Origin: Thalassolituus hydrocarboniclasticus
GTDB lineage: Bacteria; Pseudomonadota; Gammaproteobacteria; Pseudomonadales; Oceanobacteraceae
Direction: 5' to 3'
Length of the DNA: 64,000 bases
Assembly (NCBI RefSeq): GCF_025345565.1
Contig: NZ_CP054475.1
Span: forward strand, 1,890,448-1,954,447
Part shown: positions 24,793 to 32,413 of the stretch, piece after piece
How positions within the stretch are numbered: position 1 is the first letter of the stretch
Layout of the letters: each line of letters begins with the position of its first letter
The notes under the pieces: generated by a model
The model's database searches: none
What the model was told of the DNA's origin: nothing
What the model saw: only the letters and a program-made list of their open reading frames with translations
Position numbers and translations under genes: made by a program

Positions 24793-24851
24793 ATTGGTGG
24801 AGCCGGCGAATTTACTGCCGGACCTGCGTGTTAACAAAAGTGGAGATCCCT

Positions 24852-27800
24852 GTGAGCGCCGACGCTTTTACTGCCGACTGGGCAGCCCTGCATAAAGCCA
24901 TTGACCAATGTTTGCTGAAAGATCAGCACGGCATGCGCCGCAGTGTGCAGCAGTTAAAGAAGCGCTCGCCGGATGATGCCGGTACCCAGGCGCAGCTGGA
25001 AAAACTGCTGCAGCGCATTCAGCGCAGCCAGCAGACGGTAGCGTTGCGCTCTCAGCCTTTACGTATTGCCTATCCGGAAGAGCTGCCGGTCAGCGGCAAG
25101 CGTGACGAGATTCTCACGGCACTGCGTGATCATCAGGTGGTGGTAGTCGCCGGTGAAACCGGTTCCGGCAAAACCACGCAATTACCTAAAATCTGTCTGG
25201 AAGCCGGTTTTGGCCGTCAGGGGCGGATTGCTCATACCCAGCCACGGCGCTTGGCTGCGCGTGCGGTTGCTCAGCGAATTGCTGAAGAACTGGGTTGCGA
25301 GCTTGGTCAGCAGGTCGGTTATCAGGTGCGCTTTACCGACCAGAGCGTCGATGCCAGCCGGGTAAAGCTGATGACCGATGGTATTTTGCTGGCGCAAACC
25401 CAGCACGACCGTTTTCTCAATGAATACGACGCCATCATTATCGACGAAGCGCACGAGCGCAGTCTGAATATTGATTTTTTGCTCGGCTATTTAAAGCAAC
25501 TGCTGCCGCAGCGTCCGGATCTGAAAATTATTATTACCTCGGCCACCATTGATGTTGACCGTTTCGCTCAGCACTTTGCCGATGCCAGTGGTAAAGCCGC
25601 TCCGGTGATTGAAGTATCCGGGCGTACTTTTCCGGTTGAAGTCCGATACCGCTCGTTATTACGGGATGAAGAGGACGCGGATGACCGCACGCTGTTTGAA
25701 GGCGTGGCTGAAGCGCTGGCTGAACTGCGCGAAGAAGATAAAAAATCCGGTCAGCATGGTGATGTGCTGATTTTTATGCCAGGCGAACGGGAAATTCGCG
25801 AGTGCGCCGAATTTTTACGCCGCGCACAACTACCGGCGACTGAAATTCTGCCGCTCTATGCGCGCTTAAGCGGTGCCGATCAGCAGAAAATCTTTAAGCC
25901 TCACGGTGGCCGGCGGGTGGTGCTGGCCACCAACGTGGCAGAAACCTCGCTGACGGTGCCGGGCATCCGTTATGTGATTGACTCCGGCGTGGCGCGCATC
26001 AGTCGCTACAGTTACCGCAGCAAAGTGCAGCGGCTGCCGGTTGAGGCTATTTCTCAGGCCAGTGCCAATCAGCGTGCCGGTCGTTGTGGCCGTACTTCGC
26101 CGGGTATCTGTATCCGTCTGTACGAAGAAGCCGATTTTCTTGCCCGCTCAGAATTTACCGATCCGGAAATTCAGCGCACAAATCTGGCTGCGGTTATTTT
26201 GCAGATGCTGCATCTGAAACTCGGCCGGCTGCAGGATTTCCCCTTTATCGATGCCCCCGACGAGCGCTTTATTAAAGACGGTTTTAATCTGCTGCAGGAA
26301 CTTGAAGCCGTTGATGCCGACGGGAATATGACAACGCTGGGCCGACAGATGGCGCGTCTGCCGGTTGATCCGCGTATTGGCCGGATGTTGCTCGAAGCAA
26401 AGCAGCAGCAATCATTGCGCGAGGTGCTGATTATTGCAGCGGCTTTAACCGTGCAGGACCCGCGTGAGCGGCCACCGGAAAAACAACAGGCTGCGGATGA
26501 AAAACACCGCCTCTGGCAGCATGAAGAATCCGATTTTCTCAGTCTGGTGAATTTATGGTTTGCCTACGAAGAACAGCGTCAGGAAACCTCGCAGGCGCAG
26601 TTGCGTAAATGGTGCAGTAAGCATTTTCTGTCTTTTATGCGCATGCGTGAATGGCGCGATACCCACCGACAGCTGCATGTATTGTGCAAAGAGCTGGAAT
26701 TAAAAGAAAACGCCGAGCCGGCCAGCTACGAAGCCGTACACAAAGCCTTGCTGGCCGGCATGCTCAGCCAGATTGGTTTTAAATCGGAAGGGCAGGAATA
26801 TCTGGGCGCCCGTAACCGTAAATTGTTTATTTTTCCGGCGTCGGGGCAATACAAGAAAAAGCCGAAGTGGATGATGACCGCCGAACTGGTTGAAACCAGC
26901 AAACTGTATGCACGTACGGTGGCGCGTATAGAACCGCAGTGGATAGAGCAGGTCGGCAAGCCGCTGCTGAAATATCAGTATTTTGAACCGCACTGGAATG
27001 CCCAGCGTGGGCAGGTAACCGCTTTTGAACAAAGTACGTTATACGGCTTGATCGTTAATCCGCGCAAACGGGTTAACTATGCGTTAACGCATCCGCAGGA
27101 AGCACGGGAAGTCTTTATTCAGGAAGGTCTGGTAGAGCAGCAGTTGCGCAGCAAACTGCCGTTTTACCGCAAAAATATTGCGCTGCTGAAAGAAGTCACT
27201 GAGTACGAAGAGAAATCCCGCCGCCGTGATCTGGTCATTGACGATGCCTGGCAGGCGGAGTTTTATCGCCGGCATTTACCGCAGGACATTCCGTCGGTCA
27301 GACACCTTGAACGCTGGTATGAAAAAGCCCCGGCGGCGGAGAAAAAAGCACTCGAATTTACCCGCGATCAATTACTCAGTGCGGATGCGGCGGGTATTGG
27401 TGCAAAAGATTTTCCGGCCGAACTGGAATGGCAGGGCATGGCTTTTCCGCTCAGCTATACCTTTGCCCCGGGTACTGATAATGATGGCGTTAGCCTGAGT
27501 GTGCCGGTGGCGATGCTGCAGCAGGTTCCGGATGCCCAGGTTGAGTGGCTGGTGCCTGGCTTTATTGGCGAAAAAGCCGCTCAGCTGATTAAGGGTTTGC
27601 CCAAAGCGGTGCGCAAAAACTTTGTACCTGTACCGAATACGGTAGAAGCCTTTCTGCGTCAGGCGGATGCCTCTCAGGGTGGTCTGTATATTCAGTTGCT
27701 GAATTTTCTTAATAAAACCCAACGTCCGCCGCTGGAGTTATCACAGCTGCTGGAGGTTGAGTTAGCGCCGCATCTGCGCATGAATATCCGGGTGATGTCC

Positions 27801-28769
27801 GATGGTAAGCTGCTGGCGCAGGGACGCGATCTGGCGGCGTTAAAAGCGCAGCTGAGTGATGCCAGTCAGCAGCAGGTACTGACGCTGGCGCATCAGGATT
27901 ATCAGCGCAGCGATATCAGCCAGTGGGATTTTGCCGATTTACCGGAGACTATCCAGACACAGGTGAATGGTTTGCCGGTGCGTGCATTCCCGTGCCTGCG
28001 TCTTAATGGTCAGCAGCTGGAATTAACCGTTGAAGCCAATATTAATGATGCCCGCCGTGCACACCGCACAGGTGTCAGCCGCCTGATCCGCAACGCTCTG
28101 CCGGAACAGGAGCGGATGCTGAAAGCCCATATTCAGAAAACCATGGCCAGCCGCTGGTTGCTGGCAAAAGGTCTGGGCAGTCAGGCTGATATTGCCAATG
28201 ACCTGCTTGAGGCTGCGTTTATTCAGGTGTTTGTGCCTCTGGATGAAGCGCTGCCTTACACTGAGGCTGAATATAAAGCCCGCCTGGAGCGTCGTGCTGA
28301 GCTGATTACCCACGGCGAACGGTTATTGGCGCAATACATTGAGTGGCTGCAGCTACGTCATACCATTCTGAAGCGTATTGGTGGTGCGGTCAGCCTGGAT
28401 CGTGCGATGGCCTACAGCGATGTAAAAGCTCATCTGCAGCGGCTGCTGGCTTCCGGTTTTATGAGCCGTACTCCCTGGGTTCAGCTGCAATGCTACAGCC
28501 GTTACTTACGCGCGATGGAATACCGCATCGATAAATTGCAGGGCAATCTGCCGCGTGACCGGCAGTCGATGATTGAGTATGAGGCGCTGGCAACGCCTTA
28601 TCTTGAATTACTGGCGCGTGTTGATATCGATGACCATCCGCAATTACAGGAATTTGGCTGGCTGCTGGAAGAGTGGCGGGTATCGTTGTTTGCTCAGCCG
28701 CTGGGTACGCGAGAGCCGGTATCGATGAAACGACTGCAGAAGCGTTGGCTGGAAATCCGTGATATCTGA
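24852..28769 (+). CDS. hrpA: ATP-dependent RNA helicase HrpA
   Basis: A 1305-residue DEAH-box helicase, close to the 1300 of E. coli HrpA, which rescues stalled or collided ribosomes. Motifs: GETGSGKTTQLPK (motif I), DEAHERSLNIDFL (II), TSATID (III), TNVAETSLTVPGI, and QRAGRCGR (VI); then the helicase-associated and OB regions and the HrpA-specific C-terminal domain (DUF3418). The GTG at 24852 is preceded by GGAG at 24842-24845; an in-frame GTG at 24828 is less well placed. Confidence 0.96.
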   Translation: MSADAFTADWAALHKAIDQCLLKDQHGMRRSVQQLKKRSPDDAGTQAQLEKLLQRIQRSQQTVALRSQPLRIAYPEELPVSGKRDEILTALRDHQVVVVAGETGSGKTTQLPKICLEAGFGRQGRIAHTQPRRLAARAVAQRIAEELGCELGQQVGYQVRFTDQSVDASRVKLMTDGILLAQTQHDRFLNEYDAIIIDEAHERSLNIDFLLGYLKQLLPQRPDLKIIITSATIDVDRFAQHFADASGKAAPVIEVSGRTFPVEVRYRSLLRDEEDADDRTLFEGVAEALAELREEDKKSGQHGDVLIFMPGEREIRECAEFLRRAQLPATEILPLYARLSGADQQKIFKPHGGRRVVLATNVAETSLTVPGIRYVIDSGVARISRYSYRSKVQRLPVEAISQASANQRAGRCGRTSPGICIRLYEEADFLARSEFTDPEIQRTNLAAVILQMLHLKLGRLQDFPFIDAPDERFIKDGFNLLQELEAVDADGNMTTLGRQMARLPVDPRIGRMLLEAKQQQSLREVLIIAAALTVQDPRERPPEKQQAADEKHRLWQHEESDFLSLVNLWFAYEEQRQETSQAQLRKWCSKHFLSFMRMREWRDTHRQLHVLCKELELKENAEPASYEAVHKALLAGMLSQIGFKSEGQEYLGARNRKLFIFPASGQYKKKPKWMMTAELVETSKLYARTVARIEPQWIEQVGKPLLKYQYFEPHWNAQRGQVTAFEQSTLYGLIVNPRKRVNYALTHPQEAREVFIQEGLVEQQLRSKLPFYRKNIALLKEVTEYEEKSRRRDLVIDDAWQAEFYRRHLPQDIPSVRHLERWYEKAPAAEKKALEFTRDQLLSADAAGIGAKDFPAELEWQGMAFPLSYTFAPGTDNDGVSLSVPVAMLQQVPDAQVEWLVPGFIGEKAAQLIKGLPKAVRKNFVPVPNTVEAFLRQADASQGGLYIQLLNFLNKTQRPPLELSQLLEVELAPHLRMNIRVMSDGKLLAQGRDLAALKAQLSDASQQQVLTLAHQDYQRSDISQWDFADLPETIQTQVNGLPVRAFPCLRLNGQQLELTVEANINDARRAHRTGVSRLIRNALPEQERMLKAHIQKTMASRWLLAKGLGSQADIANDLLEAAFIQVFVPLDEALPYTEAEYKARLERRAELITHGERLLAQYIEWLQLRHTILKRIGGAVSLDRAMAYSDVKAHLQRLLASGFMSRTPWVQLQCYSRYLRAMEYRIDKLQGNLPRDRQSMIEYEALATPYLELLARVDIDDHPQLQEFGWLLEEWRVSLFAQPLGTREPVSMKRLQKRWLEIRDI

Positions 28770-28929
28770 TTTTTTTCTTCCCGACTGTAAGAGGCGGGTG
28801 GGTCCTGCGACTAAGGTTAAGTGCACCGCAAAAGGGTTGAATTAATTACCTTTTCCGGGCACTAATGTGTCAGCTCTGCGTCATCAGGCGTGGGTAAAAA
28901 CGTTCCTAATCTCTGAACAGGACTACATC

Positions 28930-29310
28930 ATGGCTAAAAAAACAATGAAACCCGTTGCTGCTGTACTGGGTACTGCCTTCATCGCTGCACTGGCTCAGGC
29001 TCCTGTGGCCTCTGCGGCTGAAAATCCATTTGCGTCTGCTGAATTGCAGTCTGGTTATAAACTGGCTGCGCACCATGAGGGAAAGTGTGGTGAAGGCAAA
29101 TGCGGTGAAGGTAAATGTGGTGCAGAGAAAACCAAAGCCGAAGGTAAGTGCGGCGAAGGTAAATGTGGTGCCGATAAGGCCAAATCTGAAGGCAAGTGCG
29201 GCGAAGGTAAATGCGGTGCTGATAAGGCCAAGTCTGAAGGCAAGTGCGGTGCCGATAAGACCAGATCTGAAGGCAAATGCGGCGAAGGTAAGTGCGGCGG
29301 CAGCAAGTAA
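28930..29310 (+). CDS. hvfA: HvfA/bufferin-type copper-binding RiPP precursor with ten EGKCG motifs
   Basis: A 126-residue exported peptide precursor: Sec signal (to about residue 29, VASA), a short conserved region (ENPFASAELQSGYKLA), then ten EGKCG motifs with cysteines at 53, 58, 63, 74, 79, 90, 95, 106, 117 and 122, spaced by five or by eleven residues (linker ADKAKS-like). In HvfA of Haemophilus and related bufferins, EGKCG cysteines are converted by an MNIO enzyme into copper-binding oxazolone/thioamide groups. Start ATG follows AGGA at 28919-28922. Heads an operon with maturase (hvfB), partner (hvfC) and DoxX-like (hvfX) genes. Confidence 0.92.
   Translation: MAKKTMKPVAAVLGTAFIAALAQAPVASAAENPFASAELQSGYKLAAHHEGKCGEGKCGEGKCGAEKTKAEGKCGEGKCGADKAKSEGKCGEGKCGADKAKSEGKCGADKTRSEGKCGEGKCGGSK
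29077..29298 (+). repeat. Coding EGKCG repeat array in hvfA
   Basis: Tandem 15- and 33-base units, nearly identical in DNA (GGCAAGTGCGGCGAAGGT-like). The similarity at DNA level suggests recent expansion by slippage or unequal crossing over. Confidence 0.85.
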
Positions 29311-29312
29311 AC

Positions 29313-30191
29313 ATGAAAACAACCTCCCACTTCGTTGCCGGAGCCGGGTTGGGGTTGCGGCGGGCTCTGATGGGCCCGCTGGCCGACGTGCCGGATACCG
29401 CCATTGATTTTATGGAAATTGCGCCGGAAAACTGGATTGGGATTGGCGGCCGTTTTGGCAAACAATTGCGTCAGTTTACCGAGCGTTATGATTTTCTTTG
29501 TCATGGCCTGTCGTTATCTCTGGGTGGCCCGGCTGCGCTTGATGAAGCACTGGTCCGCTCGGTCAAAAGCTTTATGCAGGAGCATGGCATTAAGGCTTAC
29601 AGCGAGCACCTGAGCTACTGCAGTGACGATGGGCATTTATATGACCTGATGCCTGTGCCGATGACGGAAGCAGCGGTTGATTATGTCGCTGAGCGCATTA
29701 TGCGGGTGCAGGATATTCTCGGGCAGCGTCTGATTATCGAAAATGTGTCGACCTATGCTGAACCCGGCAAAGAAATGTCGGAGCAGGATTTTGTCTGTGC
29801 GGTGCTGGAAAAGGCCGACTGCGATCTGCTGCTGGATGTTAATAATGTTTATGTGAACAGTATTAATCATGGGCAGGATGCGCTGCAATATATCCGGGCT
29901 ATGCCAACACAGCGTATCCGCTATCTGCATATTGCCGGTCATTACGATGAAGCCGATGACCTGCTGGTTGATACCCATGGCAACGCGGTTAAAACCGATG
30001 TCTGGGCATTATTGCAACATGCCTATGATTGTCACGGTGTACAGCCGACATTGCTGGAGCGGGACTTTAATTTCCCCGCTGTAGCTGAGTTGCTGGCTGA
30101 ACTTGATGTCATTCGTCAGTATCAGGCTGACGCTGAGCGCGCTGTAAAAAATGGTTCTCTGCTCAGTGGAGGTGTTCGTGTCAGTGGCTGA
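29313..30191 (+). CDS. hvfB: MNIO (DUF692) RiPP maturase HvfB/BufB
   Basis: A 292-residue multinuclear non-heme iron oxidase with a TIM-barrel fold that modifies cysteines of the precursor peptide. Expected metal-ligand segments are all present: FLCHGLSLSL (His 64), YSEHLSY (Glu 98, His 99), IIENVS (Glu 143), LLDVNNVYVN (Asp 175, Asn 178), LHIAGH (His 206, His 210), DTHG (Asp 220, His 222) and LLERD. I chose ATG 29313, two bases after the hvfA stop; there is no strong ribosome site, so it may be translated at a lower level by coupling. Confidence 0.94.
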   Translation: MKTTSHFVAGAGLGLRRALMGPLADVPDTAIDFMEIAPENWIGIGGRFGKQLRQFTERYDFLCHGLSLSLGGPAALDEALVRSVKSFMQEHGIKAYSEHLSYCSDDGHLYDLMPVPMTEAAVDYVAERIMRVQDILGQRLIIENVSTYAEPGKEMSEQDFVCAVLEKADCDLLLDVNNVYVNSINHGQDALQYIRAMPTQRIRYLHIAGHYDEADDLLVDTHGNAVKTDVWALLQHAYDCHGVQPTLLERDFNFPAVAELLAELDVIRQYQADAERAVKNGSLLSGGVRVSG

Positions 30192-30957
30192 GCATAATGA
30201 ACACCTTAAACAGCAGCGGGAATTTGCCGCTCATCTGCGTAATCCGGAGGTGGTCGCCGCGCCCGGAAGTATCGATGAGCGCCGCCTGTCGGTTTACCGT
30301 GAACTGTTTTTTAATAATATTAAAGGCTTTCTGGATACGACGTTTCCGGTCTGTGCGGAAGTGTTGGGTGATTCCCGCTGGCAGGCCTTGGCGCGTGATT
30401 TTTTTGCCAGCTATCGCGCCCAGAGTCCTTATTTTCTGGAAATTCCGCGTGAATTCCTGACCTATCTCGAAACGCATTATCAGCCTGAGGCTGATGATCC
30501 TGACTATTTTTATGAACTGGCCCATTATGAGTGGCTGGAGCTGGCAGTGGATATTGCCGTTGCTGATGATGCTTCCGGGCTGACAAGTGAATTAAGCGCA
30601 GAGAACCTAGCCGCTGGCATTCCCTTATTGGGGGTGGCTGAGGGCTTTCTCTACCAATATCCGGTGCACGAAATTTCGTTACAGAATACATCCCCTGACG
30701 CGAAAGCAACGGCGCTGATCGTTTATCGTGCACCGGATGATCAGGTCCGTTTTATTGAAACCAATCCTTTTACTCTGCAATTACTGGCTCTGTTGAAAGA
30801 ACAAGCGCTCAGTGGCTATGACGCTGTCTGCACGTTACTGCAACAGGCCGGAATCAGTGTCAGCGAGGCAGCAGTTGCCGGTGGCATGGCAATTCTGCAG
30901 CAATGGGCCGGGCAGGGATTAATTACCGGCGTTCAGGCTGCAACCGAAGCGGATTAA
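30178..30957 (+). CDS. hvfC: RiPP maturation partner HvfC/BufC (DUF2063)
   Basis: A 259-residue protein with the DUF2063 N-terminal domain: RRLSVYRELFFNNIKGFLD and FPVCAEVLGDSRWQALARDF, then PYFLEIPREFLTYLE and LAHYEWLELAVD. In studied systems this protein binds the precursor and supports the MNIO enzyme. GTG start with GGAGG at 30168-30172; overlaps hvfB by 14 bases, which points to a fixed maturase complex. Confidence 0.92.
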   Translation: MSVAEHNEHLKQQREFAAHLRNPEVVAAPGSIDERRLSVYRELFFNNIKGFLDTTFPVCAEVLGDSRWQALARDFFASYRAQSPYFLEIPREFLTYLETHYQPEADDPDYFYELAHYEWLELAVDIAVADDASGLTSELSAENLAAGIPLLGVAEGFLYQYPVHEISLQNTSPDAKATALIVYRAPDDQVRFIETNPFTLQLLALLKEQALSGYDAVCTLLQQAGISVSEAAVAGGMAILQQWAGQGLITGVQAATEAD

Positions 30958-30972
30958 CCTGAGGAATATGTT

Positions 30973-31581
30973 ATGTCGTTAGTCAGTTTTCTTGATGCGC
31001 AGTACGACCGGTTAAATTCAACCCGCGCCTTTGATTTTCTGGCCCCTCTTGCTTTACGCCTGTACCTGGCTGCTGTTTTTTGGGTCGCTGGTATGAATAA
31101 AGTGGCGGGTTTCGATAATGTGGTTCAATGGTTTGGCAATGATGAGTGGGGGTTAGGTTTGCCTTTTCCCTGGCTGATGGCCTTTCTGGCGACGGCTGCT
31201 GAAGTGGGCGGTGCGGTTTTGCTGCTGCTTGGGCTTGGCACCCGTTATATTGCCGTGCCTCTTATGATTACCATGCTGGTCGCTATTTTTACCGTGCACT
31301 GGGATTATGGTTGGCAGGCGATTGCGGACCTGAATTCTCCGGGAGCTACGGCCGCGACTGCAGAGGCATTAACCCGTCTGGAGCGGGCGCGTGAAATATT
31401 GCAGGAATACGGTAACTATGCCTGGCTGACGGCGGATGGACGTTACAGCTTTGTGGTGTCGAATAATGGTATTGAGTGGGGAGTAACCTATCTGCTGATG
31501 CTGCTGGTTTTGTTTTTCCAGGGGGCTGGCCGCTGGTTCAGTCTGGACTATTGGATAGAGCAACGCTACCGGGCGCAATAG
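30973..31581 (+). CDS. hvfX: DoxX family membrane protein HvfX
   Basis: A 202-residue inner-membrane protein of the DoxX family with about four hydrophobic helices (LALRLYLAAVFWVAGMNKVA, WLMAFLATAAEVGGAVLLLL, YIAVPLMITMLVAIFTVHW, WGVTYLLMLLVLFF). DoxX-like proteins are regular members of HvfA/bufferin operons; a role in peptide maturation or copper handling at the membrane is proposed. GAGGA lies just upstream of the ATG, 15 bases after hvfC. Confidence 0.88.
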   Translation: MSLVSFLDAQYDRLNSTRAFDFLAPLALRLYLAAVFWVAGMNKVAGFDNVVQWFGNDEWGLGLPFPWLMAFLATAAEVGGAVLLLLGLGTRYIAVPLMITMLVAIFTVHWDYGWQAIADLNSPGATAATAEALTRLERAREILQEYGNYAWLTADGRYSFVVSNNGIEWGVTYLLMLLVLFFQGAGRWFSLDYWIEQRYRAQ

Positions 31582-31678: not shown

Positions 31679-32413
31679 ATGCGCTCAGCATGGCTATTCC
31701 TTTTTTTCCTGGCGTCTTCAATCAGCTGGGCTGCGGACGATAATGATCCCGATCCGTGGGAGGGGTTTAACCGTTCCATGTTCGCATTTAACGAAAACCT
31801 CGATAAATATGTCGCCAGACCGCTGGCCGAAGGCTATCAGTACATCACCCCTGAGCCTGTCGATCAGTCGGTAACGCATTTTTTCTCGAATCTGGGAGAA
31901 GTTCTGGTTATTGCTAATGATATTGGTCAGTTGAAAATGGGGCAGGCTTTATCGGATACCGCACGCTTTCTGATCAACAGCACGGTGGGGTTTTTCGGTA
32001 TATTTGATGTTGCAACACACATAGGGCTGCCTAAGCACAACGAAGATTTTGGTCAGACTCTGGGCTACTGGGGTGTTGGCAGTGGTCCTTATCTGATGCT
32101 GCCGTTTCTTGGGCCAAGTACGGTTCGGGATGGAGCGGGATTGCTGCTCGATTATGAAAGCGACCTTGGCTATACCGGTGTTGCCAATAATTACGCTCAG
32201 GAGCTGGGGCTGTACACGGTTCGTGGTGTCGATCTGCGTGCTGACCTTCTGGCTTCGGAAGGGTTGATATCCGGCGATCGCTATACCTTTATCCGCAGCT
32301 TTTATCTGCAGCGTCGTGAGTACCTGATTAACGACGGTGTGGTGGTGGATGAGTTTGAAGATGACTTCGACGACTTTGATGATGAGAGCTGGGATGACGA
32401 TTGGGAGGAGTAA
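31679..32413 (+). CDS. mlaA: MlaA/VacJ family protein without lipobox
   Basis: A 244-residue MlaA homologue; MlaA removes misplaced phospholipids from the outer leaflet of the outer membrane and passes them to MlaC. Family motifs are strong: DPWEGFNRSMFAFNENLDKY, LINSTVGFFGIFDVA, EDFGQTLGYWGVGSGPYLML and LPFLGPSTVRDGAG. Unlike E. coli MlaA it has no lipobox cysteine: the signal ends SISWA-ADDND and looks like a signal peptidase I site. The C-terminus is a run of Asp/Glu. It stands alone, away from other mla genes. Confidence 0.92.
   Translation: MRSAWLFLFFLASSISWAADDNDPDPWEGFNRSMFAFNENLDKYVARPLAEGYQYITPEPVDQSVTHFFSNLGEVLVIANDIGQLKMGQALSDTARFLINSTVGFFGIFDVATHIGLPKHNEDFGQTLGYWGVGSGPYLMLPFLGPSTVRDGAGLLLDYESDLGYTGVANNYAQELGLYTVRGVDLRADLLASEGLISGDRYTFIRSFYLQRREYLINDGVVVDEFEDDFDDFDDESWDDDWEE

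Follow-up and report, generated by a model that had tools for sequence, protein, structure and literature searches.

The window analysed here is a stretch of 64,000 nucleotides from Thalassolituus hydrocarboniclasticus (contig NZ_CP054475.1, positions 1,890,448 to 1,954,447). It contains a compact hvfABCX operon at positions 28930-31581, which encodes a cysteine-repeat precursor peptide together with its putative maturation proteins. The gene identities are near certain, and by its family profiles the operon is an HvfABCX system of the oxazolin / Buf_EGKCG / captophorin class, which is known and widespread. As a peptide system it is ordinary. The new part is regulatory: hvfA is preceded by conserved promoter-like elements. 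The operon and these elements are laid out as follows.

28786-28813, + strand: promoter-like element 1, TGTAAGA-N15-CGACTA, putatively of the extracytoplasmic function (ECF) sigma type
28838-28865, + strand: promoter-like element 2, TGAAT-N18-ACTAA, between element 1 and hvfA
28930-29310, + strand: hvfA, precursor gene with an ATG start and a stop at 29310, 126 residues
29313-30191, + strand: hvfB, multinuclear non-haem iron oxidase (MNIO, DUF692) maturase, matching NF003818 and PF05114
30178-30957, + strand: hvfC, DUF2063 partner with an RRE-like domain, probable GTG start at about 30178
30973-31581, + strand: hvfX, DoxX-family membrane protein, matching NF050144 and PF07681

Only 2 nt separate hvfA from hvfB, hvfB and hvfC overlap by about 14 nt, and the gap between hvfC and hvfX is 15 nt. 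HvfB scored 432.6 bits against NF003818 (cut-off 360) and 340 bits against PF05114 (cut-off 25). Its best solved relative is 3bww_A (phmmer E 3.5e-69), described as an MNIO from Histophilus somni (PMC13097082). HvfC reached 261.4 bits against NF050145 (cut-off 142) and also matched PF09836 and PF22106, while HvfX scored 230.3 bits against NF050144 (cut-off 80) and 86.4 bits against PF07681. Because the HvfA repeat scored 111.9 bits against the NCBIfam model NF050137 (cut-off 19.5), it is not a chance repeat. With HvfB, HvfC, HvfX and the HvfA repeat all above their NCBIfam cut-offs, the initial annotation was confirmed in the identity of the four genes, their coordinates and the tight operon, and its statement that the family is known was borne out. 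Against a strict assignment, the full-length HvfA equivalog NF050188 gave 65.4 bits, under its cut-off of 95; by these scores the precursor is a member of the HvfA family and not a strict HvfA equivalog.

The maturase of the captophorin fontiphorin, FonB, reads its substrate motif through Arg15, Arg16, Asp249 and Phe250 (PMC13097082). R16, R17, D251 and F252 of HvfB, the Arg-Arg and Asp-Phe residues of the Lys-Cys group, correspond to these residues, as paired by motif and not by an alignment with FonB, and are kept in 106, 106, 107 and 106 of 107 HvfB rows, respectively.

The precursor repeat among its relatives

HvfA contains exactly ten EGKCG motifs and ten cysteines, with motif-to-motif spacings of 5, 5, 11, 5, 11, 5, 11, 11 and 5 residues. 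The motif count in hvfA thereby verified the five/eleven-residue cysteine spacing described in the initial annotation. The motifs form blocks of 3-2-2-1-2, linked by AEKTKA, ADKAKS, ADKAKS and ADKTRS. A basic start, a hydrophobic stretch and an AxA-like site give the N-terminus a signal-peptide-like appearance, as judged by eye, and a leader segment, NPFxxxxLxxGY, represents a motif found in 59 of 79 precursors. Tandem Repeats Finder reported periods of 48, 33 and 15 bp over the gene. The ten 15-bp motif copies differ from their consensus at 18 positions, and all 18 differences are synonymous, where silent changes make up 20% of all possible single changes in the motif and 5 of 15 transitions (33%). 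This indicates that selection holds the EGKCG motif while the DNA drifts; since the copies share ancestry, the differences are not independent, and we attach no p value to them. Long frames also run over hvfA at 28955-29407 (+), 28979-29461 (-) and 29055-29504 (-). We regard such overlapping long open reading frames (ORFs) on both strands as by-products of repeat lengths in multiples of three.

The motif number was compared in two samples: the best 80 of 345 genome_contigs loci retrieved with HvfB, and 30 hvf loci fetched from 44 genomes of the organism's own family. In the wider sample, 56 of the 80 loci carried an EGKCG ORF with at least three motifs and 24 were without one. The 56 precursors, one of which (L058) is a 28-residue fragment, hold 3-16 motifs, ten or more in 12 and exactly ten in 6. 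Within the family, such an ORF was present at 27 of the 30 loci, with a range of 5-12 motifs: five motifs at one locus, seven at two, eight at 11, nine at three, ten at nine (the window's own locus included) and twelve at one. The three closest genus mates have 8, 10 and 10 motifs, and locus L084 shows a module pattern of 2-2-2-2-2. When both samples were pooled into 80 precursors, which retain three near-duplicate pairs, the 5-residue spacing occurred in 79, the 11-residue spacing in 28 and three adjacent motifs in five. The published EGKCG proteins number about 2,000, with 31-506 residues and one member with 58 cysteines, and a beta-helix model is given in the same publication (PMC12452194). 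An unusually expanded precursor, as the initial annotation had proposed, is ruled out by these counts and by the 58-cysteine member, and neither the copy number nor the module pattern, to which it had drawn attention, stands out.

Promoter-like elements and a candidate sigma factor

An alignment of the regions upstream of hvfA showed that genus mates and a further genus retain the element 1 block with unchanged spacing. The exact element precedes hvfA at 6 of 78 loci (Markov null mean 0.0, 100 runs), and a looser form, TGTAA-N15..19-CG[AT]C, at 17 of 78 (null mean 0.57, maximum 3, 100 runs), including five Microbulbifer loci (L007, L013, L018, L060 and L063). Within the 4.07-Mb genome the exact element occurs twice, before hvfA and before a spondin-domain gene. 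The second site (G000:C1:984746-984773; L128:1501-1528) lies 28 bp before the Spond_N gene L128:1557-2270, which encodes a lipoprotein-like product of 237 residues (Spond_N, 139 bits). Spondin look-alike genes were seen in L151 and L154. There are ten looser sites in the same genome. The hvfA and spondin sites precede an ORF without falling inside a long one; a third, overlapped by a long antisense frame, is located 85 bp ahead of an rpsL-like ORF, one is outside ORFs with no ORF after it, and six fall inside long frames.

Across the 44 family genomes we found 19 exact sites: six before hvfA, three before spondin genes (one checked with Pfam, two judged similar by eye), three before AhpC/TSA-type redoxins, one before msrP and six elsewhere. 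The msrP gene scored 486.3 bits (cut-off 207), and the best NCBIfam match of the redoxins was SelL_rel_redox at 58-79 bits, under the cut-off of 120. Of the six other sites, labelled by eye, three fall within hrpA (L146-L148). The remaining three lie in an ORF of unassigned function (L145), ahead of a LysR-type gene (L144) and ahead of a sensor-like gene (L157). The placement of the sites was compared with that of the reversed pattern, with promoter position defined as outside ORFs of at least 150 residues and at most 150 bp before a same-strand ORF. Fifteen of the 19 element 1 sites were in promoter position, as opposed to 1 of 14 reversed sites (Fisher p 6e-5, kinship ignored), and 9 of 13 when the six hvfA sites that founded the pattern were excluded.

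A candidate for the cognate sigma factor is encoded in the same genome by a sigma/anti-sigma pair at G000:C1:29211-29795 (L133:1265-2040, about 29.0-29.8 kb). The ECF protein scored 243.1 bits against TIGR02943 (cut-off 162.2), and its gene overlaps a 64-residue anti-sigma gene with the sequence HTLICSGC (HxxxCxxC), which matched NF052368 antisigmaE at 76.3 bits (cut-off 50). By eye, the pair directly follows a trkH-like gene. The ECF gene is distant from hvf, at 29 kb versus 1919 kb in the genome. Orthologues with at least 57% identity are present in 22 of the 44 family genomes, below which identity drops to 40%. In the genus, all five hvf-bearing genomes and none of the four hvf-less ones have the ECF gene (p 0.008). 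All 13 exact sites that precede hvfA, spondin, redoxin or msrP genes are in ECF-positive genomes. Element 1 precedes hvfA at 11 of 17 loci in ECF-positive genomes versus 0 of 10 in ECF-negative ones (p 0.001; three of the 30 loci, with no recognised hvfA ORF, were dropped).

The neisserial sigma-E promoter is described as GTMAGBWTT, 12-13 nt, CGTCTAAH (PMC2893595). Compared by hand, element 1 matches it at GTAAG and CGnCTAA, at the same distance (21 nt from GTAAG to CG, versus 21-22 nt in the consensus). The two differ at the third -10 base, which is T in Neisseria and A in element 1, leaving CGACTAA and CGTCTAA one base apart. In view of the correlation of 11/17 versus 0/10, the TIGR02943 sigma factor may read the hvfA promoter.

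Several observations weigh against this assignment. The anti-sigma pattern was found beside only 11 of the 22 ECF orthologues, and across the family the association of ECF and hvf is not significant (20 of 35 hvf-bearing versus 2 of 9 hvf-less genomes, p 0.13). Element 1 is missing at 6 of the 17 ECF-positive loci, the exact site in L145 sits in an ECF-negative genome, and the p values given above ignore relatedness and common descent. The number of exact sites, 19, also barely exceeds the 14 of the reversed pattern, and enrichment by number alone is hence not shown. The reversed control differs in composition, since at up to one mismatch the own genome holds two element 1 sites, both exact, versus 21 reversed ones. 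It is location, not number, that sets element 1 apart from the reversed control.

Element 2, written as [TG]GAA[CT]-N18-[AT]CTAA, was found upstream of hvfA at 11 of 78 loci (null mean 0.29, maximum 2), whereas other spacings from 13 to 23 gave 0 or 1 each; these sequences also supplied the pattern, which is thus partly post hoc, the sharp spacing being its only independent support. The site at 28838-28865 is the sole match in the window. The carriers are four Thalassolituus-type loci, L006 and six ECF-negative loci (L103, L104, L110, L113, L115 and L117), so that several lineages lacking the RpoE2-like ECF show element 2 alone, with exact spacing, at 6 of 10 such loci. We take element 2 to resemble RpoE (sigma-E) promoters. 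Between 28700 and 31800, one sigma-70 promoter (shuffle mean 3.2) and two terminators (shuffle mean 4.1) were predicted, none of them upstream of hvfA, and the search for an RNA element in the hvfA leader gave no Rfam match and a fold z-score of -1.57.

Genomic setting and distribution

Two genes outside the system serve as syntenic anchors.

24828-28769, + strand: hrpA-like helicase gene, upstream anchor, identified by Pfam matches
31679-32413, + strand: mlaA lipoprotein gene, downstream anchor (PF04333, 252.8 bits)

A search of the 4.07-Mb genome for MNIOs gave HvfB as its single match, with no second MNIO found, and the EGKCG family likewise matches only hvfA. Among the best 80 of 345 matches, the nearest named HvfB relatives are from Thalassobium (92% identity) and Thalassolituus alkanivorans (91%), and HvfB with at least 58% identity is present in 35 of the 44 family genomes. 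Of 25 loci from other genera, 8 have hvf between both anchors (L108, L111, L112, L114, L120, L122, L123 and L124), and most of the remainder have one of them within flanks of only 1.5 kb. In the genus mates G002, G005, G006 and G008, HvfB was not found at 58% identity or above, and hrpA adjoins mlaA (L098, L100, L101 and L102). The operon and the TIGR02943 sigma factor are both missing in four of the nine genus genomes. Since hvf occurs in other genera, its ancestral presence and later loss in these hvf-less genus mates are suggested. That mlaA is itself a member of the operon is unlikely, as it adjoins hrpA also where hvf is absent.

Among the 80 genome_contigs loci, hvfC was detected in all and hvfX in 29 (tblastn with the window's HvfX). 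By the same search, mlaA follows hvfC with no hvfX detected at L105, L106, L107, L109, L112 and others. Two of the genus mates without hvf carry distant MNIO genes. In G005, one of 40% identity is separated by about 0.9 kb from an ECF gene of 39% identity (G005:C14:179209-181412), a pair that looks like a separate bufferin-type cluster, and G006 has three of 33-38% identity on C70, C71 and C51 (L087, L088 and L089). An hvf locus with 65% HvfB identity (L009, JABDRC010000359.1) comes from a metagenome-assembled genome labelled as a Halobacteria archaeon, where it is probably a binning contamination. A phage origin was rejected, neither HvfA nor HvfB having a PHROGs match.

Copper chemistry, oxidants and the role of the operon

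The modification has been assigned as 5-thiooxazole in fontiphorin, oxazolin and gonophorin (PMC13097082), and the original authors also reassigned it in this way (PMC13419390), which supersedes the oxazolone/thioamide chemistry assumed initially. All six cysteines are modified in oxazolin (PMC13419390). The Microbulbifer precursor MmrA loses four hydrogens per cysteine at all six of its cysteines and binds Cu(I) (PMC12538549). For fontiphorin, which has seven thiooxazoles, the maximum was four copper ions bound (PMC13097082), so ten cysteines need not mean ten copper ions; a ratio of one copper ion per cysteine is not what this relative showed. By analogy with these peptides, thiooxazole formation and copper binding by HvfA are likely, and the periplasmic copper role proposed at the outset gains support from homology as a probable Cu(I)-binding function.

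The operon shares much with each of these systems. Like oxazolin, encoded by HvfA/HvfBCX in Haemophilus influenzae, it combines the same four gene families in one operon with EGKCG repeats, although oxazolin has six modified cysteines (PMC13419390) as opposed to ten motifs here, and the HvfA of the window falls under the equivalog cut-off. The captophorins fontiphorin and gonophorin have in common with it the EGKCG repeats, an MNIO with its DUF2063 partner, and conserved substrate-reading residues; for fontiphorin seven thiooxazoles are reported (PMC13097082), whereas the operon of the window is known from its genes alone. MmrABC, which yields bulbicupramide in Microbulbifer, shows similar EGKCG cassettes with short and long spacing, in addition to the element 1-like sites at Microbulbifer loci. 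It differs in having 5-8 cysteines, and its authors detected no expression with or without added copper (PMC12538549), which counts against the interpretation given below. The 58-cysteine Buf_EGKCG protein of Pseudoalteromonas piscicida also has repeat units with two EGKCG motifs each, but its unit is 17 residues long (PMC12452194), unlike the 16-residue units here, and the protein is far longer.

On the regulatory side, the closest parallels are the Neisseria sigma-E and Haemophilus RpoE2 regulons, where the targets of an ECF sigma factor, which is paired with a small anti-sigma factor of the HxxxCxxC type, include a DoxX/MNIO/DUF2063 operon and methionine-sulfoxide reductases (PMC2893595, PMC7907618). 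In N. meningitidis, both the counterpart of the operon and msrAB are under sigma-E, whose anti-sigma factor is MseR (PMC2893595). The H. influenzae operon is RpoE2-dependent and inducible by hypochlorous acid (HOCl) (PMC7907618). Unlike in these regulons, the sigma gene of the window's genome is not beside hvf. Sigma genes also occur inside Buf1 clusters (PMC12452194), and the sigma-F regulon of Caulobacter includes DUF2282/DUF692/DUF2063/DoxX genes and YedY (PMC3511200). A coupling to methionine-sulfoxide repair therefore recurs in related systems, and the present idea extends this theme without introducing a new principle. We take the Caulobacter YedY to be MsrP. In a limited literature search, we found no description of the hvf operon in Thalassolituus or of the link to spondin and redoxin genes.

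We consider an HvfABCX operon for a thiooxazole Cu(I)-binding peptide under envelope-stress control to be the best overall explanation, and a likely one. HvfA would be made with a Sec-type signal peptide and, in the cytoplasm, be presented by HvfC, through its DUF2063 and RRE-like domains, to HvfB. This multi-iron oxidase would convert up to ten EGKCG cysteines to 5-thiooxazoles. After export of the modified peptide into the periplasm, its thiol groups may provide several Cu(I)-binding sites, with copper ions probably fewer in number than motifs. HvfX is presumably a membrane accessory, which we assign to no particular step. Expression would probably start from two envelope-stress ECF-type promoters, one read by the RpoE2-like TIGR02943 sigma factor held by its zinc-finger anti-sigma factor and the other possibly by RpoE. 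With two such promoters, envelope oxidation or stress would increase the copper sink. The analysis itself shows the gene identities, the motif counts, the conservation, the promoter-like elements and the co-occurrence; we infer the modification, copper binding, export and sigma-factor assignment, and regard double envelope-stress control of hvfA as a supported hypothesis.

The strongest alternative concerns purpose: the main job may be protection of the envelope from reactive chlorine or bromine species or other oxidants instead of copper homeostasis, with the peptide either being sacrificed as a sulphur-rich scavenger or keeping redox-active copper out of reach under oxidative stress. Element 1 is common to msrP, the AhpC/TSA-type redoxins and the spondin-domain gene, the equivalent operons are induced by HOCl through RpoE2 in H. 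influenzae and are under sigma-E control in Neisseria (PMC7907618, PMC2893595), and copper protection by the Microbulbifer system is weak (PMC12538549). On the other hand, copper binding is known for captophorins and oxazolin, bufferins improve growth under copper stress (PMC12452194, PMC13097082), and sigma-E expression in N. meningitidis was unchanged by the oxidants tried (PMC2893595). On balance we find a primarily oxidant-directed job less likely than not.

The other alternatives fare worse. The extra motifs could be neutral slippage, with few EGKCG motifs modified and the repeat number drifting as a minisatellite, and the tandem periods, the difference between 3-2-2-1-2 here and 2-2-2-2-2 in L084, and the unequal counts in genus mates are what slippage would leave. 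It is improbable given that every motif-copy difference is synonymous and that the cysteines are fully modified in oxazolin and MmrA, with seven thiooxazoles in fontiphorin (PMC13419390, PMC12538549, PMC13097082). A bufferin operon in the strict sense (Buf1/Buf2) shares the gene set of precursor, MNIO, DUF2063 and DoxX proteins (PMC12452194), and the initial annotation had used the label bufferin-type. The precursor has neither DUF2282 nor another Pfam match and carries EGKCG repeats instead, and the maturase, which passes the HvfB model, reached 260 bits against the BufB equivalog NF050167 (cut-off 310). Of the two families named for the maturase, HvfB thus stood and BufB did not; the label was too loose, and the strict version, already refuted by the family scores, is extremely unlikely.

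We tentatively propose, at slightly less than even confidence, that the EGKCG captophorin of this marine lineage serves envelope defence and is triggered by oxidants, not primarily by copper, under dual control by an RpoE2-like ECF and an RpoE-type promoter. As part of this proposal, the RpoE2-like ECF control would be common to MsrP, AhpC/TSA-type redoxins and a spondin-domain lipoprotein. The finding has a mild bearing on the wider question of the purpose of such copper-binding peptides, which are very common: the promoter ties to methionine-sulfoxide repair, to redoxins and to one sigma/anti-sigma pair would allow a direct test, in a marine bacterium, of an oxidant versus a copper trigger.

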